DNA of 37,090 nucleotides from IMG/VR virus record IMGVR_UViG_3300008954_000132, positions 1 to 37,090 of that record; one strand, 5' to 3'. The DNA is from a virus. Positions 1 to 37,067 of this stretch are shown one piece after another (positions within the stretch are counted from its first letter, which is position 1; every line of letters starts with the position of its first letter). The translations under genes were made by a program, and so were the position numbers. Below the pieces are notes generated by a model. It was not told the origin of the DNA. It saw nothing but the letters and a program-made list of their open reading frames with translations, and ran no database searches.

Positions 1-269
1 GGTGTTTTAGAAATAAGTTCCATTGATTGAGCCGTGGGTGTTTGGGCCGTGGCTATTGTTTGATTAACCTTATCTAATGGTTTAGGCACCTGTGATTGAA
101 GTGGTGGTTTAGGTGCAGTTGATTTAGAAATTTTAAATAATTCTCTTAAGAAAGGAATTCGTCTTCTGCCTAAGTATGCAGCTCCCCCGACTAACGCACC
201 AATGCCCAAGGCTCCCGGAACTGCTGAAGGTTCGTATGTTTTATATTCTTCTAATTCTTTTTTAGCCAT
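1..269 (-). CDS. hypothetical protein, 3' end beyond the window
   Basis: Open from an ATG at 269 to the window edge with no stop, so the C-terminus is missing. It begins MAKKELEEYKTYEPSAVPGA and then has a short glycine/alanine-rich hydrophobic stretch (about residues 21-34, a possible membrane segment) and a basic patch LGRRR, followed by a Pro/Gln/Thr-rich region. Its ATG overlaps the stop of the upstream gene as TAATG, and an AGGAG lying inside that gene's C-terminal tag codons serves as its ribosome binding site. It is the fifth member of the post-TerL gene string. I expect, but cannot see, the same C-terminal tag here. Function not recognised. Confidence 0.7.
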   Translation of the reverse strand, partial: MAKKELEEYKTYEPSAVPGALGIGALVGGAAYLGRRRIPFLRELFKISKSTAPKPPLQSQVPKPLDKVNQTIATAQTPTAQSMELISKT

Positions 270-316
270 TACAATAAACTCCTATCCACATTTTTACCTA
301 TAACTACTTCACCCCC
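269..316 (-). repeat. tag repeat copy A (GGEVVIGKNVDRSLL plus stop)
   Basis: 48 nt encoding the 15-residue tag and the stop. From the preceding Asp codon through the VD codons it differs from copy B at a single base, so A and B are recently duplicated or homogenised. The AGG AGT codons (Arg-Ser) double as a Shine-Dalgarno sequence for the following ATG. Confidence 0.9.
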
Positions 317-625
317 ATCATGTACTTCTATAATAGGAATTGCTTTACCATCTTTGAAAATGGACTCTCCTCTAGGTAATCCATCAGGGGCTAATACTGT
401 TCCTGTTTTTGAATCCCACGGATGATCTTTACTGCCAATACGAGGCATCTTACTTTTAGGATCTCCTATTACTTTAGGGTGAATTATTCCTGTTTCTTTT
501 GACTGCTTTGTTAAAAGTTCTTTTTCTTTTTTCTTTATACGTTCTCTGAGCGCTTTCTTTTTTTCCAATTCTTTTAGTTTTTGTTCTTTCCACGCTTCAG
601 GTTTATGTATTGGTAATCCAGCCAT
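269..625 (-). CDS. small charged protein with shared C-terminal tag
   Basis: 118 residues. The N-terminal half (about residues 10-45) is very rich in Lys and Glu, with runs such as KEKELLTKQ, and should form a charged helix or coiled coil. The second half has short Gly/Pro-containing segments. It ends with the tag GGEVVIGKNVDRSLL, which also ends the next three upstream-transcribed genes although the bodies are unrelated. Start ATG at 625 overlaps the previous stop (TAATG), with AAGGAT inside the preceding tag codons as ribosome binding site. No family recognised. From its place right after TerL I infer a minor virion or packaging-associated protein, with low certainty. Confidence 0.8.
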   Translation of the reverse strand: MAGLPIHKPEAWKEQKLKELEKKKALRERIKKKEKELLTKQSKETGIIHPKVIGDPKSKMPRIGSKDHPWDSKTGTVLAPDGLPRGESIFKDGKAIPIIEVHDGGEVVIGKNVDRSLL

Positions 626-672
626 TACAATAAATCCTTATCAACATTTTTACCTATAACTACTTCACCCCC
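625..672 (-). repeat. tag repeat copy B (GGEVVIGKNVDKDLL plus stop)
   Basis: Second copy of the tag module. AAG GAT (Lys-Asp) replaces AGG AGT (Arg-Ser), which keeps a purine-rich ribosome binding site before the next ATG while changing two residues. Confidence 0.9.
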
Positions 673-879
673 ATCATTAAGTGTTTGAGGGAATTCATAC
701 TTAATACTCCATAGGTTTTCAATATCGGGAACGCCTATATGTTTAACAGAAACTGGTATAGTTTTTACGGTAGCACCCGTAAGAGTTTTAGGAGTACCTA
801 AACGACTTGCCCCATATAGTGCAGCTCCTGTAAGAGCAAATTTACCTAATTTTTTTATTATTTTTTTAAATCTAGACAT
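625..879 (-). CDS. small basic/amphipathic protein with shared C-terminal tag
   Basis: 84 residues. The N-terminus is strongly basic (MSRFKKIIKKLGK) and runs into a hydrophobic Gly/Ala stretch (FALTGAALYGASRLG, about residues 14-28). This looks like an amphipathic or membrane-inserting helix and resembles the hydrophobic stretch of the gene at the left window edge. The C-terminus is GGEVVIGKNVDKDLL, nearly identical in DNA to the tag of the next gene. Starts at an ATG in a TAATG overlap, with AGGAG in the upstream gene's tag codons. Function unknown. A membrane-active or ejected virion peptide would fit, but this is inference. Confidence 0.75.
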   Translation of the reverse strand: MSRFKKIIKKLGKFALTGAALYGASRLGTPKTLTGATVKTIPVSVKHIGVPDIENLWSIKYEFPQTLNDGGEVVIGKNVDKDLL

Positions 880-926
880 TACAATAAACTCCTATCCACA
901 TTCTTTCCAATTACTATTTCCCCACC
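879..926 (-). repeat. tag repeat copy C (GGEIVIGKNVDRSLL plus stop)
   Basis: Third copy. The peptide is nearly the same as A, but many codons differ at the third position (for example ATT GGA AAG against ATA GGT AAA). It shares the downstream DRSLL-stop-ATG stretch with copy A. Confidence 0.9.
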
Positions 927-1757
927 AGTACTATGTTTGGTTGCACTCTTAGATTTAATTTTATTTATGTAAGTTTCTAATTTAGTATAATCTTTAAAAA
1001 ACTTATCTAATTTTCTTTCTGTTCTTGGTTTGTTATATTTATCTAATTTATAAACTTGTCTTAAATTTTTAGCTTTGCCCCACAATAAGGGCATAGCTTT
1101 TTTATTATGCTTTAAAGCTATCTTTGCTTGATTTTGAATTTTTATTTTTAAACCCTGAGCAATAGTTAATTTTCTTAAATCATCAGGTTTAATTTTATGA
1201 ACTCCTAAAGGAGCTAGTTCGGGAGTTTTAATATACTTAGGATCTTGTTTTAATTTTAATCTAGCCCGCGTGTGCATTTTATGCCCAGCTGTTGCTTTTT
1301 TAAATTGTTTAAATCCTGTTTTAATCGCTTTAGTTAATAAGCCTCCTTTTAATTTCTTTTTAATTTTTCTTTTCTTTTTTCCTAGTAAAATTCTAACGCT
1401 TTTTTTAACGTCTGCTGGGTTTTGGCTCATATGAACTCCACCATACATTCTAGACATTTCTTCGCCCCAGGTTTCTCTAGAACCAACATAAGGCATTCTT
1501 TTTATAATAGCACCAAAACCTCCAGGATTAACTTTTAGTGTCAAACCTCTTCTGCCATAATGAGTTCCTTTTTGAGTTTTAATTTCTATTCCTGAATGAG
1601 TGGTAGGTTTTTGTTTGAAATTATATTTAGCTTCTGTTTTTTTACCTTTTACATAAATATTACGTCTAGATAAAGATTTATATATTTGATTATATTTTTT
1701 TTGTGACGCTTTTCTTCTAGCTAATTTCATAGCTCTTGTCAGAAGTTTTCTTTTCAT
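879..1757 (-). CDS. large, very basic protein with shared C-terminal tag
   Basis: 292 residues, extremely rich in Lys and Arg throughout (for example KKKRKIKKKLKGG near residues 128-140), so likely a nucleic-acid or phospholipid binder. No catalytic motif is visible. It ends TGGEIVIGKNVDRSLL. The start ATG overlaps the previous stop as ATGA (stop at 1754-1756), and AAGGAT of the upstream tag lies about 8 nt before it. Its basic composition and its place beside the terminase would suit a virion DNA-binding or ejected protein. A chance lysine-rich reading frame is unlikely given the tag and the tight overlaps on both sides. Confidence 0.8.
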   Translation of the reverse strand: MKRKLLTRAMKLARRKASQKKYNQIYKSLSRRNIYVKGKKTEAKYNFKQKPTTHSGIEIKTQKGTHYGRRGLTLKVNPGGFGAIIKRMPYVGSRETWGEEMSRMYGGVHMSQNPADVKKSVRILLGKKKRKIKKKLKGGLLTKAIKTGFKQFKKATAGHKMHTRARLKLKQDPKYIKTPELAPLGVHKIKPDDLRKLTIAQGLKIKIQNQAKIALKHNKKAMPLLWGKAKNLRQVYKLDKYNKPRTERKLDKFFKDYTKLETYINKIKSKSATKHSTGGEIVIGKNVDRSLL

Positions 1758-1801
1758 AACAAATCCTTATCTACATTCTTACCAATGACAATTTCTCCAC
1801 C
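1754..1801 (-). repeat. tag repeat copy D (GGEIVIGKNVDKDLL plus stop)
   Basis: Fourth copy and the most diverged at DNA level (GTC ATT, TTG TTA). The stop is TGA, overlapping the next start as ATGA rather than TAATG. Confidence 0.9.
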
Positions 1802-2020
1802 TTCAACTCTATTAAGAACTTCTCCTCTATTATTAACTTTAAGTTTAAATTTCTTAATGAGTTCTTTTTTCGAAGCATCATAAGCTGAATATCGACTTAA
1901 GCCTGCCGCTTGGTTCTCTCCATAAATCTTTTCAAATATCTTTTGGGCACGCTTTCCTACTCTTGCTTTTTTAAAGGCAAGGTTTAATAAAGGAGTCCCA
2001 AATCTACTAAATACAGCCAT
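1754..2020 (-). CDS. small basic protein with shared C-terminal tag, directly after TerL
   Basis: 88 residues. The body (residues 1-72) is basic and helical-looking, with a middle segment QKIFEKIYGENQAAGLSRYS. The last 15 residues are GGEIVIGKNVDKDLL. The ATG lies 2 nt after the TerL stop with no Shine-Dalgarno sequence in front, so translation probably depends on coupling to TerL. This is the first of the four tagged genes in the direction of transcription. Its tag uses different synonymous codons from the other copies, which argues for selection on the peptide. No family recognised. Confidence 0.75.
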   Translation of the reverse strand: MAVFSRFGTPLLNLAFKKARVGKRAQKIFEKIYGENQAAGLSRYSAYDASKKELIKKFKLKVNNRGEVLNRVEGGEIVIGKNVDKDLL

Positions 2021-2022
2021 AA

Positions 2023-3498
2023 TTAATAATACACTATTCTTAATCCTTTGTTTTTCTTCTCTTCCTCTTCCCAGTCTGAGTAAGTAGAAACAAAAGAACC
2101 TTGTCGATATCTTAACATAGCTTGGGTGGTGCTATCTACATAGTCGTCATTTGCGCCGTGAGGGAAAGCAGCACATTCCTCGATTACTTCATAAGCAAAT
2201 CGCTCTCCTTCTGGATAGAAGACTTGTCCTGATTCAAACATAGGAGCACACGCATTAACCCTGGTATGCTTGTCTTTTCCTTTAGAGGGGACAAAATCTA
2301 TAACAGGAATACCCATTCTCCTAAACTCTTGAGTGAGTGGTTGGCCCGTGGCTTTTTGTTCGATCACCACAGATTCAGGTTCCCAGTATTTATATTGATC
2401 TAACGCGACTACTTTTAATTCAGGAAAGTCCCACTTACCACGGACCGCGTCTAATAAAATAATAGCTTCGGGTTCATCCTCGAAAGGTTTAAATATTCCC
2501 CATGTGGTAATAGCTGAATAGTCAGCTGTTTCCTGTTTAGAGAATGCAGTGTCATAAGATTGGATAACATGTTTTAAAGTGGGCAATCCCCCTTTCCATA
2601 CTTGCCACCAATCTCTTTTAATGATTGCTCCTTCTTCTGATGTAGGCTCTTGCATATATTGAGCCGACCAATTTCTAATTGTTAAGGAAGCTTTTACTTT
2701 TTCTAATTCTTCAAACGACCAATACTCTGGCCAGACTGGATCACCACTCGGCATAATTGCAGGAAAGGAAATTTGTTTCCACCTATCTGCTTTAGGTTCT
2801 TTTTGAGCTTTGATTAAACGACCAGTCAAATCATCTTCTGCCCATCGAGTCATAACTAATACAATCGAACCACCAGGTTGCAAACGCTGTCTGGGTCCAG
2901 ATGTATACCAGTCATATGCACGCTCCATGGCCCCCTCGGACAAAGAATCCTGCTCTGTGTGTGGGTCGTCAATTATCAACAGATCCGCACCACGTCCAGT
3001 AATTGCTCCTCCTACTCCAGCTGCGAAATATTCGCCACCGTGATTGGTTTCCCACTTACCTTTGGCCTTTGCGTCTTCTCTGAGTCTAACATCTCCAAAG
3101 ATCTGTGAATACTCTGGAGAAGCTAATAAATTTCTAACCTTACTACCAAACCTAGTAGCTAATTCTGTATTGTGGGAAACTTGCATAAGTTTCATTTTAG
3201 GATTTCTTCCCATCATCCACGCAGGAAAATAAACAGAAGCAAATTCCGATTTTGTATGTCTAGGAGGCATATTAACAATTAATCTTCCTTTATTATCATT
3301 CGATATTTTTGTAAATTCATTGGCAATGATTTGATGATGGCCCCATCGAGAGGAATCATTAGTTTTTCTAAATATAAAGTCTGGCCATACTTCTTTAACA
3401 AAATATAGAAAATTATCTTGGCAAAGCTTGATATGTTGTAACCAGGTCTTTTCTACACGGTCTCTTAATTGTTCTGTTGATAGTAAATCAGTATTCAT
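2023..3498 (-). CDS. terL: terminase large subunit (TerL)
   Basis: 491 residues, full length for the family. It is the ATP-driven DNA packaging motor and headful/cos nuclease. Visible motifs: a deviant Walker A, PPRHTKS, at 78-84; Walker B LLIIDD at 173-178; the coupling motif VMTRWAEDDLTGRL near 215-228; and an RNase H-like nuclease domain with Asp316 in IQSYDTAFS, VVIEQKATGQP near 377-387 and a late acidic cluster NDDYVDS at 450-456. Start ATG at 3498, 4 nt after the stop of a 47-residue gene, with a weak AGGA just upstream. The tagged genes follow. TerS lies about 4.7 kb upstream instead of adjacent. Confidence 0.95.
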   Translation of the reverse strand: MNTDLLSTEQLRDRVEKTWLQHIKLCQDNFLYFVKEVWPDFIFRKTNDSSRWGHHQIIANEFTKISNDNKGRLIVNMPPRHTKSEFASVYFPAWMMGRNPKMKLMQVSHNTELATRFGSKVRNLLASPEYSQIFGDVRLREDAKAKGKWETNHGGEYFAAGVGGAITGRGADLLIIDDPHTEQDSLSEGAMERAYDWYTSGPRQRLQPGGSIVLVMTRWAEDDLTGRLIKAQKEPKADRWKQISFPAIMPSGDPVWPEYWSFEELEKVKASLTIRNWSAQYMQEPTSEEGAIIKRDWWQVWKGGLPTLKHVIQSYDTAFSKQETADYSAITTWGIFKPFEDEPEAIILLDAVRGKWDFPELKVVALDQYKYWEPESVVIEQKATGQPLTQEFRRMGIPVIDFVPSKGKDKHTRVNACAPMFESGQVFYPEGERFAYEVIEECAAFPHGANDDYVDSTTQAMLRYRQGSFVSTYSDWEEEEKKNKGLRIVYY

Positions 3499-5833: not shown

Positions 5834-5854
5834 TTGTTTCTCCTTTTGTTGGGC

Positions 5855-5938
5855 TCACCAGCCTGACCTCCAGTCTCCCTTCGGCTCGGCTGTGATGGTG
5901 GCATTATGAAAGTTAATCCATCCGTAACGCATATGCAT
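5855..5938 (-). CDS. possible 27-residue leader peptide
   Basis: Short frame MHMRYGWINFHNATITAEPK ending DWRSGW, with GGGGG a few bases before its ATG. It lies in the leader between the candidate promoter at 5959-5986 and the gene at 5507-5833. The composition (Trp, Tyr, Asn) looks protein-like, but the length allows chance. Confidence 0.3.
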   Translation of the reverse strand: MHMRYGWINFHNATITAEPKGDWRSGW

Positions 5939-5958
5939 GCCCCCGTGAGCTTCAGGTA

Positions 5959-5986
5959 TATATATCCCATCTTTCTGGGAAGTCAA
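5959..5986 (-). promoter_or_regulatory. sigma70-type promoter with symmetric spacer (copy 1)
   Basis: On the minus strand TTGACT (5981-5986), 16-nt spacer, TATATA (5959-5964). The spacer itself is an inverted repeat TCCCA-N6-TGGGA, as expected for an operator. The -35 lies in the stretch ATTTAGGGCTTGAC, which is repeated exactly at 6520-6533. It would drive the genes at 5418-5938. Confidence 0.55.
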
Positions 5987-6073
5987 GCCCTAAATGAATT
6001 TATTTTTCACAGCAGGAGCTGCCTGGATCCAGAGTCCTGTAGTTTAGTTGGAAGCCCAAGCACCAGCTTGGTG

Positions 6074-6098
6074 CGAGGCGAGGCGCGAGAACGAAAGG
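6074..6098 (+). repeat. CGAGR pentamer array 3
   Basis: CGAGG-CGAGG-CG-CGAGA-A-CGAAAGG. Directly preceded by the hairpin GCACCA-GCT-TGGTGC (6060-6074) and, 58 bp earlier, by GAGCTG at 6016 in a diverged copy of the module. Confidence 0.8.
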
Positions 6099-6215
6099 AA
6101 AAAGTTAACAAAATAAAATTCCCACGCCTCACACAAACCTTACTTCAGGGTATGAGCTGTGTCTACCCCCGTGCGAAGCACAGGTGAGCTGCAGATGCTA
6201 TTTAGTTTAAAGAAA

Positions 6216-6250
6216 CGAGGCGAGCGGGACGAGGCGAGACGAGACGAGAC
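6216..6250 (+). repeat. CGAGR pentamer array 4
   Basis: CGAGG-CGAGCGGGA-CGAGG-CGAGA-CGAGA-CGAGA, the longest clean pentamer run. Preceded by GAGCTG (6186-6191) and ATGCTATTTAGTTTAAAG (6195-6212). Confidence 0.85.
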
Positions 6251-6336
6251 CAGCTTGGCGCGGTTCGAAAGAGCAAATTAATAACCGGTGTTTCTCTTAC
6301 GCTACTTATCCAAGTTTCCTTTATCGCGCAGTCCCA

Positions 6337-6376
6337 CGCGCGAAGACTGATCCGAATAACTCCGTCGCTTCGCGCG
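6337..6376. ncRNA. 9-bp GC hairpin in possible noncoding RNA region
   Basis: CGCGCGAAG (6337-6345), 22-nt loop, CTTCGCGCG (6368-6376), a perfect stem in an otherwise AT-rich phage. It sits in the unique 6270-6480 stretch about 120 nt downstream of the candidate minus-strand promoter at 6497-6524, so a structured RNA is possible. No known RNA family recognised; tRNA was considered and not supported. Confidence 0.3.
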
Positions 6377-6487
6377 AATTTCGTTGCACCTTCGTTTAAC
6401 CTAGTGGCTCAACTAAATCGTCCGTAACATCGAGATCAAACCAATAGCCGAACGATCTAATCCCACAACACGTATTTTTGCGAATGG

Positions 6488-6509
6488 GATATCTTATATA
6501 TAAGATATC
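6488..6509. repeat. perfect 22-bp palindrome flanked by 7-bp inverted repeats
   Basis: GATATCTTATA-TATAAGATATC, an uninterrupted palindrome. It is enclosed by ATCCCAC (6460-6466) and GTGGGAT (6510-6516). The palindrome covers the -10 of the minus-strand promoter at 6497-6524, so an operator for a dimeric regulator is the simplest reading. A recombination or resolution site is an alternative. Confidence 0.8.
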
Positions 6510-6524
6510 GTGGGATAATGTCAA
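6497..6524 (-). promoter_or_regulatory. sigma70-type promoter (copy 2) under a palindrome
   Basis: Minus strand: perfect TTGACA (6519-6524), 16-nt spacer, TATATA (6497-6502), start expected near 6489. The -35 side shares the 14-mer GTCAAGCCCTAAAT (plus-strand sense) and the 16-nt spacer with copy 1 at 5959-5986. The next reading frame downstream is more than 550 nt away, so it may make a long leader or a separate RNA. Confidence 0.6.
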
Positions 6525-6602
6525 GCCCTAAATTTTCCTGAAGCACGGTACGCATCCAGCTCCTGATGAGCACAAGAATTTATTTCCCACGCGCCTTTCA
6601 AA

Positions 6603-6622
6603 CGAGGCGAGGCGAGACGAGA
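6603..6622 (+). repeat. CGAGR pentamer array 5
   Basis: CGAGG-CGAGG-CGAGA-CGAGA, four uninterrupted units. Preceded by CCCACGCGCCTTTCAAA, which resembles CCCACGCCTCACAC before 6140. Confidence 0.85.
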
Positions 6623-6682
6623 AGCGTGAGCTTCCACCTGCATCCTGAGCTGCTGGATCCCGGACCAGTGCTGTTTAGTTAA

Positions 6683-6720
6683 CGAGGGCGCGAGGGAAAC
6701 GAGGCGAGAACGAGGACGAG
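6683..6720 (+). repeat. CGAGR pentamer array 6 (degenerate)
   Basis: CGAGG units separated by GCG, GAAA and A: a decayed array. Preceded by GAGCTG (6647-6652) and TGCTGTTTAGTTAA (6669-6682), the module also seen at 6186-6212. Confidence 0.75.
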
Positions 6721-6733
6721 CAAACCAGAACCA

Positions 6734-6751
6734 GTTCAGGTTCAGGTTCAG
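6734..6751 (+). repeat. GTTCAG tandem repeat, three copies
   Basis: Three perfect 6-bp units directly before the end of the VRR-NUC gene (stop at 6748-6750). Confidence 0.85.
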
Positions 6752-7185
6752 GAGGCAGCTGGTCCCAGGGCCCGGAGAATTAGTTTACGTAATCCAACTT
6801 CATCATCCGAGGCAACCGAGACGAGGCCCACGGATCCCCTTCCCTTAATCTCTAGAAGTTTAAGGGCTCGGTGCTTGACCCCCGAGCCCAAGATATACGC
6901 TGTGCCACCATTTCTCAAGTGCGTTAAATGCCAATTGATTTGCCACTTACTCAAACCATAATTCTTGAGATCATTTGATTTCAGTTCTATCCAAATAGTA
7001 CGACCTTTATACAAAATATAAACATCCGGTATTCCATTAATTGTATTAGATTCTATGCGGAAAATTTGTGCATCCAGGTTTAATTTTTTTATTCTTTGCC
7101 AGAGCTTTGATTCTCTTTTTTGTGCCACGCGAAACAAATCAAGTTTTGATTTTGGCGGGCTTCTCCCCATACCCATCCACCACAT
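6748..7185 (-). CDS. VRR-NUC-type nuclease (PD-(D/E)XK fold)
   Basis: 145 residues. Residues about 30-75 match the VRR-NUC pattern: KRESKLWQRIKKLN, then RIESNTINGIPDVYILYKG with the key Gly-Ile-Pro-Asp, then TIWIELKSN carrying the catalytic Glu-x-Lys, followed by LSKWQINWHLTHLRNGG. Such small stand-alone phage VRR-NUC proteins are thought to be structure-specific or Holliday-junction-type endonucleases. The start is uncertain (MWWMGMGRSPPK, several Met); the ORF overlaps the upstream gene by 47 bp. The C-terminal 40 residues (SVGLVSVASDD... onwards) read through CGAGR repeat DNA and look unlike the family, so the original end may have been replaced. Confidence 0.8.
   Translation of the reverse strand: MWWMGMGRSPPKSKLDLFRVAQKRESKLWQRIKKLNLDAQIFRIESNTINGIPDVYILYKGRTIWIELKSNDLKNYGLSKWQINWHLTHLRNGGTAYILGSGVKHRALKLLEIKGRGSVGLVSVASDDEVGLRKLILRALGPAAS
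6808..6826 (+). repeat. CGAGR repeat fragment inside a coding region
   Basis: CGAGG-CAAC-CGAGA-CGAGG on the plus strand, lying within the C-terminal codons of the minus-strand nuclease gene (6748-7185). It suggests the repeat spread into, or was captured by, the end of this gene. Confidence 0.6.
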
Positions 7186-7846
7186 TTATACTCATATCTG
7201 GTGGTGCTGCATGTAATGGTAAATCAACTAAAATATTGCCAGAAACCGATACTCTTTCACAATTTGACTTAAATGGACACACATAATGGGTCAAACTAGA
7301 AGGAAAAATAAATATATCTCTCTCCTCTGGGAAATAAGATTGATAGGTAATATATTCTTTAGGGCCGTCCCCATAAGTAAACATTAAACTCCCTGGACCA
7401 GTTGAAGTACTTACACAATTTTTATTTTCTTCTTTTAATTCCTCTGGAATAGATAAATAAGTAACAAAAGAATATTTATCACTATGATTATGTGGTGGAT
7501 TAAATTCATTTTGTTTTTGGTAGTTAACCCACATAGATTTTAAAAAATATTTATTATAAGGCTCATCCTTCCCGGAGTTACGCCACTCTCTCAGCGCTTG
7601 TTCATAAGCTCTCATCATACCGGCTACATAAGGAGTATATGTATTTAAGTCATTGTAAGCATATTCTTCTCTAATATGCCCGGCTAATCTTGTGCGATAA
7701 TCTCTGTCTGCAATCCTAGCCTGTTTAGCCCCTTCTAATAACAATTTATGGAACTTTTCACTAATTTTAAAATGGAGAACAAAGGGCCCCCAATTTAAAA
7801 TGTTTACATGAACATTCGGCTGCTTTTTTTTCTTTTCTTCACTCAC
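7139..7846 (-). CDS. 2OG-Fe(II) oxygenase, phage TIGR02466-like
   Basis: 235 residues. The cupin core has the iron-binding set: His119 and His121 in NPPHNHSDKYSFVTYLSIP, then a distal SLTHYVCPF with His187, and Arg198 in NCERVSVSGN to hold 2-oxoglutarate. The first pair is HxH-like rather than the classic HxD, as in several marine phage members (Asp123 could also serve). Substrate unknown. Phage enzymes of this type are proposed to modify proteins or nucleic acids. Starts ATG 7846, with 9 nt between this start and the stop of the upstream gene. The window also holds a second oxygenase of another subfamily at 36486-37067. Confidence 0.8.
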   Translation of the reverse strand: MSEEKKKKQPNVHVNILNWGPFVLHFKISEKFHKLLLEGAKQARIADRDYRTRLAGHIREEYAYNDLNTYTPYVAGMMRAYEQALREWRNSGKDEPYNKYFLKSMWVNYQKQNEFNPPHNHSDKYSFVTYLSIPEELKEENKNCVSTSTGPGSLMFTYGDGPKEYITYQSYFPEERDIFIFPSSLTHYVCPFKSNCERVSVSGNILVDLPLHAAPPDMSINVVDGYGEKPAKIKT

Positions 7847-31931: not shown

Positions 31932-32708
31932 TCATGCCACAGTTAGCTCATCTTTTAATTTACCTATATAAGACTTCTCGCCTGTATGGGTAATATATTC
32001 ATCGACTAAGGCATATATTTTACCACCTACATCAGTCCATAATTTACAGAAATAGAAGTCTTCTCCTAAATAAATTTCTTCTTCTTGATTATAATAAGTA
32101 TCAAAAAAGTTATAAAAATTAGGTCTTCTTACCATCTTACCATCTATAACATGGTCTTGTTTAATGGTAAGTTTAGGGTATTCCTTGACTAACTTCGTAA
32201 ATACAGAACGTTGTATCATCATACATCCCGCTGGTGCTCTGTGTAATTCTATCCAACCATCTTTAATTTTAATATTATCAGGATCTTTAACATGAATGGG
32301 AAAGGTTAATCCCATTGTTTCTACATCATCATCCGGACGACGCTTTAGATCCTCTCTAAATTTGTTTTGATTTATAGTTTTCATCGGATAAGCAATACAG
32401 CTTATCTCATGATCCGAATGTAATAATCTAAAAATAGATCTAGTACTAAAGGAAATGTCCGAATCAATAAATAAAAAATGAGTGCAAGAAGAATTGAGAA
32501 AAGCAGATACAGCTAGATTACGTCCTTGAGTAACTAAACTACTTTTAAGTATTTGAAAAGTAATATGATAACCATTCAATAGACATTCTTTTTGTAAATC
32601 CAAGATGGCTTTACAGTAGTGTAGTTGCACCGTGTCATAACACGGGGTAGCTACCATTAAGCTAATCCTAGATTTCGTTTCTTTTTTTAATGGTTGTTCT
32701 TTTTTCAC
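31932..32708 (-). CDS. GT-A-fold glycosyltransferase
   Basis: 258 residues. Residues 14-90 contain SRISLMVATPCYDTVQLHYC, SSLVTQGRNLAVSAFLNSSC and HFLFIDSDI, with the metal-binding Asp82-Ser-Asp84 of the GT-A fold (GT2/Anp1-like). A later GWIELHRAPAGCMMIQRSVF fits the acceptor side. It overlaps the other glycosyltransferase by 41 bp; ATG 32657 (MVATPCYD) is an alternative start beyond the overlap. Substrate unknown. Could decorate virion proteins, phage DNA or host surface sugars. Confidence 0.8.
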   Translation of the reverse strand: MKKEQPLKKETKSRISLMVATPCYDTVQLHYCKAILDLQKECLLNGYHITFQILKSSLVTQGRNLAVSAFLNSSCTHFLFIDSDISFSTRSIFRLLHSDHEISCIAYPMKTINQNKFREDLKRRPDDDVETMGLTFPIHVKDPDNIKIKDGWIELHRAPAGCMMIQRSVFTKLVKEYPKLTIKQDHVIDGKMVRRPNFYNFFDTYYNQEEEIYLGEDFYFCKLWTDVGGKIYALVDEYITHTGEKSYIGKLKDELTVA

Positions 32709-33627
32709 GATAAGCTCCGAGTAAAAATCGTTTCCAAAACATTCCTATAACATTCCAATCATAGAATTTTTTATAATATGCTTTTTGAAAATCTAATATA
32801 TCATTAATATCATTTTTAAACATGGATTGAACCCCTTGAATACCTGCCGTAAATCTTTCACTTAAAGCTTTATAGTCTGAAGTATAAGGAACATAGATAG
32901 GAAATTCTCCACATGTTTCAGGAATAGCGCCGAGGTCCGTGGTCAATAAGACTAGACCCGCTGCTAGTGATTCCATAGCAGAAATACAAAACGTTTCTTC
33001 CCATATAGAAGGATAAACATTGGCATCATACTCATGAAGTTTGGCTAATAAATCTTTATGCTTACAATAACCCATGTAATTAACATTGGGCAGTTGTTTA
33101 GCTTTTTCATACAATTTAAGGTAGTGCTTATCATTAGCTTCTTTAAAAGCATCTCCATAAATTTGAGTACTGGAATAAACATCTAAAGTAATATTTTTAT
33201 TCTCTTTTAATTGTTCCATTGAATGAAGAAGAACTTCTAGTCCTCGCCATGGAGTAGAGAAATAAACTAATTTAATTTTATCCTTCTTTTCCTGCTTTTT
33301 CTTAATAACAAGTTCATCATAATCAATACCATTTTTAATAACTAGACAATTAGGAGACTCTAATTTGAACATATATCTAAATTTTTCATAATTCCAATGG
33401 GAATTAAATACATACCAATCATATTTTGTGTGGTTTTTAGGATTAGAAAACCAAGGAGCAATGTTAGGTTGGTCAAAAGAATTTTTAAGCCATAGAATAT
33501 TAGATCGAACAGGATGAAGAGGTTCTTTTTCTGGAACCGAAGTGGTAATTTGTACGGAATCCCAATGATTGGAACAATATTTTTTTAGATAATCTAATTG
33601 AATTTCGGTTCCACCGTAGGGTTGCAT
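32668..33627 (-). CDS. GT-B-fold glycosyltransferase (GT4-like)
   Basis: 319 residues. MQPYGGTEIQLDYLKKYC gives the glycine motif Gly-Gly-Thr-Glu, and ETFCISAMESLAAGLVLLTT followed by DLGAIPETCG gives the Glu-x7-Glu nucleotide-sugar site of GT4. The middle has KLVYFSTPWRGLEVLLHSME. Starts at the TAATG junction with the preceding gene. Works probably with the GT-A enzyme encoded next, a two-step glycan addition. Sits among structural genes, so virion glycosylation is a fair guess. Confidence 0.85.
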   Translation of the reverse strand: MQPYGGTEIQLDYLKKYCSNHWDSVQITTSVPEKEPLHPVRSNILWLKNSFDQPNIAPWFSNPKNHTKYDWYVFNSHWNYEKFRYMFKLESPNCLVIKNGIDYDELVIKKKQEKKDKIKLVYFSTPWRGLEVLLHSMEQLKENKNITLDVYSSTQIYGDAFKEANDKHYLKLYEKAKQLPNVNYMGYCKHKDLLAKLHEYDANVYPSIWEETFCISAMESLAAGLVLLTTDLGAIPETCGEFPIYVPYTSDYKALSERFTAGIQGVQSMFKNDINDILDFQKAYYKKFYDWNVIGMFWKRFLLGAYREKRTTIKKRNEI

Positions 33628-36485: not shown

Positions 36486-37067
36486 CTATTTTTTAGGTAA
36501 AGTAAAGCCTTTATACCACGCAGGAAGTCCTAGAAATGGACGTTTATCAAATTCATTTTCTTTAGCTACTTTAGAACCTTTTTTATTATAATGTAAAAAT
36601 ACTTGTCCACAGTTTTTACCAGTAAATTCTTCTCTCCAGTGTTCAAGTTCACATCCTGAATAAATAAGCATATCACCTGGTTTTAAATCTACTTTAATAC
36701 CTGCTTGACCTGTTCTTCCAGAAGGTTCTAAATAAATAGGCCAATCATCTCCTCCTAAATTTAAAGTAGTAGATATCTCACATGAGTATCTATCTTTATG
36801 TCGAGCGAGTACATCACCTTTTTTATAAATCCTTGCATAGGAATATGTAGGACTTAATTTAAGTGAGGTATGTTTTTCCATAACAGGTTGAACTTTTTGT
36901 AATAAAGTTTCCATAACTAAATCTGCGTAATGAGAATAAGTATTAGGGACTTGTTGATCATTCCATACACCCCAGTAATCGGTAAAAGGTGATATATATT
37001 TTTGATCAAATAAAAATCTTGCTGCCTTTCTTTTATTTAAGAAATAAGCAAAACAAAAATCAGCCAT
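36486..37067 (-). CDS. 2OG-Fe(II) oxygenase, prolyl 4-hydroxylase-like
   Basis: 193 residues. SYARIYKKGDVLARHKDRYS contains His90-x-Asp92, and GCELEHWREEF contains the distal His143, giving the classic HxD...H iron site. STTLNLGGDDWPIYLEP is the usual strand pair and DLKPGDMLIYSGCE the turn before the distal His. Residues QVFLHY follow. AGGAG lies 14 nt before ATG 37067, a long spacing; an upstream start beyond the window cannot be excluded. Likely hydroxylates Pro or other side chains in virion or host proteins. Differs in subfamily from the oxygenase at 7139-7846. Confidence 0.85.
   Translation of the reverse strand: MADFCFAYFLNKRKAARFLFDQKYISPFTDYWGVWNDQQVPNTYSHYADLVMETLLQKVQPVMEKHTSLKLSPTYSYARIYKKGDVLARHKDRYSCEISTTLNLGGDDWPIYLEPSGRTGQAGIKVDLKPGDMLIYSGCELEHWREEFTGKNCGQVFLHYNKKGSKVAKENEFDKRPFLGLPAWYKGFTLPKK

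Follow-up and report, generated by a model that had tools for sequence, protein, structure and literature searches.

The analysed DNA, hereafter the window, comprises the 37,090 bases of a virus record, with genes located mostly on the minus strand. The terminase large subunit (TerL) encoded in the window was 76.9% identical to that of Pelagibacter phage HTVC023P and 62.5% identical to that of HTVC027P, and on these TerL identities we place the window as a fragment of an HTVC023P-type genome within the SAR11 podophage lineage. After the TerL gene, the genes designated D, C, B, and A followed in this order, succeeded by the start of a gene encoding a homologue of a 764-aa protein (Table 1). An earlier, sequence-only reading had described A to D as four open reading frames bearing a common C-terminal tag directly after TerL; their lengths and coordinates were verified, the gap between TerL and the first tagged gene was 2 nt, and the tagged genes then overlapped by 1 or 4 nt. 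The tag consensus in A–D is GGE[VI]VIGKNVD[RK][SD]LL, and a degenerate DNA pattern for it returned exactly 4 matches in the window and 0 in 100 dinucleotide shuffles.

Table 1. Features of the tagged-gene region of the window (RBS, ribosome-binding site).
Feature	Position	Strand	Details
Homologue of the 764-aa protein, N-terminal part	3..269	-	89 aa, cut by the window end; other slot border
Gene A	269..625	-	118 aa, pI 9.7 without tag; Pfam/PHROG: no match
Gene A C-terminal tag	272..316	-	GGEVVIGKNVDRSLL; next gene's RBS AGGAGT at 278-283, in the tag's last codons
Gene B	625..879	-	84 aa, pI 10.1; Lys-rich N-terminus, then Ala/Gly-rich stretch
Gene B C-terminal tag	628..672	-	GGEVVIGKNVDKDLL; gene A RBS AAGGAT at 634-639
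Gene C	879..1757	-	292 aa, pI 10.8; predicted mostly helical, low confidence
Gene C C-terminal tag	882..926	-	GGEIVIGKNVDRSLL; gene B RBS AGGAGT at 888-893
Gene D	1754..2020	-	88 aa, pI 10.4
Gene D C-terminal tag	1757..1801	-	GGEIVIGKNVDKDLL; gene C RBS AAGGAT at 1763-1768
TerL, terminase large subunit	2023..3498	-	One border of the slot; phrog_38 E 1.4e-114

Several other features were observed in the window. A gene encoding a group-1 glycosyltransferase (32668-33627, minus strand; PF00534, E 1e-14) and a second gene with no Pfam match (31932-32708, minus strand) formed a pair, 31932-33627, flanked by structural-type genes. A putative 2OG-Fe(II) oxygenase gene was located at 7139-7846 on the minus strand (PF13759, E 3.4e-15), and the segment at 36486-37067 looked similar by eye, with no Pfam match at E 0.01. 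Approximately 0.9 kb at 5834-6748 contained no convincing gene, and Rfam and ARAGORN found nothing over the window.

When the tags were removed, the bodies of A–D showed no significant mutual match (BLASTP, best E 1.7), and all four were basic, with pI values of 9.7–10.8; the four proteins are thus unrelated rather than paralogous, as had been proposed from the sequence together with their basic character. Pfam and PHROGs searches of A–D yielded no credible match, and a tblastn search of gene C against 50,697 phage records gave chance matches only. The AlphaFold model of the gene C protein was poor (mean pLDDT 52), consisting of helices and disorder at low confidence. Within the gene C family, 9 of the 12 invariant columns fell inside the tag, even though the body has about 18 times its length. 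The bodies were also modular, swapping parts between the genomes of relatives: in locus L003, one gene consisted of the N-terminal half of C joined to the body of B and another of the body of D plus a further module, each with a single tag at its end. Across the related loci, the median pI was 9.9 for tagged bodies and 9.3 for the other small proteins, with values above 9 in 80% and 57%, respectively. Membrane-spanning bodies, considered in view of the Ala/Gly-rich stretch of gene B, were dropped, a strongly hydrophobic 19-residue segment being present in only 1% of tagged bodies.

The same tag was found on unrelated bodies in other phages. The IGKNVD pattern was recovered from 24 IMG/VR stretches, some of which repeat contigs already in the set, and in every copy VD was followed by exactly 4 residues. 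The sister form, GGxVxIGKGKDYIKDL[LI], occurred on 73 stretches with up to four different bodies per contig, and KGxDYIKDL lay 1–2 residues from the C-terminus in 115 of the 115 called genes carrying it. Together, the two forms were present in 141 distinct proteins, always 4 residues or fewer from the C-terminus, and the bodies of these proteins formed at least 25 clusters that did not match one another at E 1e-3; far from being absent elsewhere, the tag recurs in related phages on many other bodies. The two main forms have in common GG-x-[VI]-x-[IV]-x-K...KDL[LI]. An unsupervised comparison of gene pairs within loci returned 66 non-homologous pairs with common C-termini, a set that mixes TerL-fetched and tag-fetched loci and in which several entries are one gene pair recurring in near relatives, while windows placed 20 or 40 residues upstream of the C-termini gave 0 among 12,352 and 8,889 pairs. 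The sister-tag pattern had no match in a collection of 84,980 prokaryote species with one genome apiece, so no host or prophage source was found.

To describe the gene slot between TerL and the portal (or TerL and the 764-aa protein), we used 79 loci fetched by TerL similarity alone. A Gly-Gly-type motif 10–22 residues from the end was present in 132 of 135 small slot genes, compared with 114 of 650 other small genes on the same strand of the same loci, which are related to each other, so that the P value cannot be taken at face value. The tag types in these TerL-fetched loci were xKxTK[LM]Y (77), IGKNVDxxLL (24), RGxxFxGxx (16), KGxDYIKDLL (9), and others; types beyond the two main forms were recognized with hand-written patterns, and most genes left out carried further Gly-Gly variants. 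Locus sets overlapped in contigs, and recognized duplicates were removed. The tags ended in hydrophobic residues (LL, LI, LY, MY), and the slot protein of HTVC023P, gp30, ended in KARGGGMARMKPTKMY. The slot held 1–8 genes, the number and identity of the bodies differing strongly between close relatives. Further tagged genes lay between the portal and GroES genes, beside the adaptor gene in locus L102, and beside a gene for a large internal-type protein in locus L091; none were seen among replication genes, though most loci stop before those. In the loci read, the tag is confined to packaging and head-tail gene neighbourhoods. In the more distant phages Pam1, MinM2, CRP-901, and CRP-810, which have a TerL of the same family, TerL and the portal or portal-like gene that follows it enclose no small genes, and the TerL-portal slot looks like an accessory cargo cassette that is not essential to this assembly type. 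A further recurring C-terminus, ...KKYYKGML or YRKYYKGML, was observed on short proteins in L148, L102, L090, and L109; in L148, it stood on a pair of slot proteins, 123 and 215 aa long.

At the DNA level, the tags of A and B differed at 4 of 45 nt and those of C and D at 10, consistent with the near identity of the former and greater divergence of the latter noted previously. The A tag was an exact recombinant, its nt 1-29 being those of the B tag and its nt 30-45 those of the C tag. Tags therefore recombine within a genome, which fits body swapping at the tag junction; the A tag of locus L001 differed from that of the window at 12 of 45 positions. In loci selected independently of the tag, codons 1-11 showed a pS of 0.69 and a pN of 0.10, i.e., a pN/pS of 0.14 (tag-selected sets gave 0.11, biased by that selection), and these codons are under purifying selection at the peptide level. 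Codons 12-13 behaved in the opposite way, with a pN/pS of 1.8. Residues 12-13, the variable [RK][SD] pair, are encoded where the next gene has its Shine-Dalgarno site; the DNA there reads AGGAGT, AAGGAT, AGGGAT, or a like sequence, with TTATTA and TAATG or ATGA after it. These two codons vary as amino acids because their DNA is the ribosome-binding site (RBS) of the overlapping gene. The earlier claim of selection on the peptide thus stood, although part of the variation ascribed to the tag, that in codons 12-13, is an effect of the RBS. In locus L102, where the next gene does not overlap (gap of 6 nt), GGEIIIGRGVDIDLL is kept and ATTGAT stands in the place of the RBS. Where sister-form genes do not overlap the next gene, the RBS is often found past the stop. 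The Lys-Asp codons were AAGGA* in 52 of 74 overlapping genes but in 3 of 22 non-overlapping ones (P 3e-6; background about 12%). The RBS is an addition to the tag and not its cause: non-overlapping genes lose it and keep the tag. This constitutes a clean case in which the same DNA stretch provides a protein signal and the RBS of the next gene, separable by comparing overlapping with non-overlapping genes.

Based on these sequence comparisons, the tag may be a C-terminal docking signal by which small, basic, mostly unstructured proteins are brought into the head or the portal-tail channel, a proposal to which we give an even chance. The slot between the terminase and portal genes holds a changing set of such proteins, each ending in a Gly-Gly hinge followed by a tag of 13-18 residues. 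The tag would bind a repeated site on the growing particle, i.e., the portal, the adaptor/nozzle ring, or the inner shell, and any body carrying it would be incorporated into the head or portal-tail channel, to leave together with the DNA. The last four codons of an IGKNVD-form tag double as RBS and spacer for the overlapping gene, so that the tag, stop codon, and next start make one compact junction; such junctions recombine, and bodies can thereby be exchanged while the tag is retained. No binding surface is proposed, because the model of the gene C protein is poor. The sequence-only reading had likewise suggested a sorting signal, and the unrelated bodies, the selection, the C-terminal recurrence, and the packaging/head-tail neighbourhood all speak for it; its variant of recognition by a protease was not upheld, as the annotation of the stretches read from isolated relatives includes no prohead protease. 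Cleavage at GGE by a phage protease was set aside for the same reason and because most tag types are without Glu. No C-terminal capsid targeting tag came up in literature searches. More tentatively, and with a probability we would put somewhat below even, the Gly-Gly types could form an address code for virion loading in tailed phages, marking nearly all products of a hypervariable terminase-portal cargo slot, each type having its own docking site, with unrelated cargo swapped freely and injected into the host; IGKNVDKDLL, KGKDYIKDLL, KxTKLY, RGxxFxGxF, and others are equally tentative as the types of such a code.

Other roles of a common C-terminus, such as turnover control or binding of TerL or a host protein, would fit the sequence data about as well as docking. 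Among the specific alternatives, the tagged proteins could be not variable cargo but portal-tail channel or core parts comparable to gp7.3 and gp6.7 of phage T7; the tag would fix them to a ring of identical sites, and the particle would need them to retain or eject its DNA. The T7 genes 6.7 and 7.3 are found shortly before the portal gene, gp7.3 combines a Lys-rich N-terminus with a Gly-rich stretch and a Gly-Gly directly before its anchored C-terminus, an anatomy close to that of gene B, and the position of the L102 tagged genes beside the adaptor gene would suit such a part. However, gene B has no sequence match to gp7.3, and a fixed component is hard to reconcile with slots of variable gene number whose bodies change so strongly between close relatives. 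Accessory cargo is favoured over a fixed structural part because the slot is empty in the more distant phages with a related TerL, and we consider the structural alternative unlikely.

A degradation or regulatory tag is less probable still, and we regard it as quite improbable: the hydrophobic C-terminus would be read by a host protease adaptor, or the tag would bind TerL so that slot proteins regulate packaging. The hydrophobic endings and the adjacency of the slot to TerL agree with this, but a short C-terminal degron leaves the conserved Gly-Gly and the internal motif unexplained, and the tag is also carried by genes distant from TerL, next to the adaptor and the large internal protein. Finally, that the repeat is mainly a DNA-level junction (an RBS/overlap cassette and recombination linker whose translation is incidentally a common C-terminus) is highly improbable and, as a full account, refuted, since the peptide of codons 1-11 is kept at nearly saturated synonymous sites and the tag persists without the RBS, so that the Shine-Dalgarno-like codons 12-13, the recombinant A tag, and the shuffling of bodies at tags leave it standing only for those two codons and the exchange of bodies.

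The docking reading would have practical consequences. Most genes of the abundant SAR11 phages and related freshwater phages have no known function, and a tag by which an entire class of likely virion cargo is recognizable in sequence would allow many of them to be assigned at once; if the tag works, it would also offer a ready route for loading foreign proteins into these particles.

Regarding the other border of the slot, the 764-aa protein (L001, 11230-13524) resembled predicted phage proteins with large-polyvalent-associated domains (E 1.2e-5), and a PDB fold search with it returned nothing significant. In L005, it was split into two ORFs, apparently by a frameshift. Large polyvalent proteins are a class thought to enter the host with the genome. 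The 764-aa neighbour resembles predicted members, and its relatives end in their own conserved Gly-Gly tail, GGLVVDIFKW, similar in kind to that of the tagged proteins, which in contrast are small and have no such domain. In L001, L003, L081, L094, and L098, the gene past the 764-aa protein ended in a further tail, GGSVDIHTKLNGTLKTRTW or GGGAINTRLNGKVKFRTY, and the N-terminus of its bodies was first Lys-rich, then Ala-rich.

When compared to known systems, the cargo-loading peptides of encapsulins offer one likeness: unrelated proteins reach an HK97-fold shell by way of a short peptide at the C-terminus. The phage tag presumably differs in sequence from the encapsulin motif, these genomes encode a full phage head, and the parallel serves as a lead only. 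The capsid targeting sequence (CTS) of phage T4, which is N-terminal and removed by the prohead protease, is the closest case for the logic of one short peptide on otherwise unrelated proteins. In contrast, the tag described here is C-terminal, exists in several types, and overlaps the RBS of the next gene, its role in encapsidation is presumed, and no protease of that kind is annotated in the stretches read of isolated relatives. The T4 internal proteins are small head proteins of great diversity in which one short conserved peptide is the sole common part (PMC3012670). In T7, gp7.3 has 99 residues, its basic N-terminal part is unresolved around the DNA, and six copies are fixed to the nozzle by residues 84-98 (PMC11784390). 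In its sequence, Gly-Gly directly precedes the anchored C-terminal loop, and its gene is upstream of the portal. Gene B, the only one compared, gave no local alignment with gp7.3 at E up to 100, and because of this lack of sequence homology the resemblance is, on present comparison, one of anatomy and not of membership. It consists of a small (about 90-100 residues), basic, largely unresolved body, the short C-terminal anchor loop of gp7.3, and a gene before the portal. The difference is that gp7.3 and gp6.7 are single proteins in T7, whereas here many unrelated bodies would be held by one anchor.
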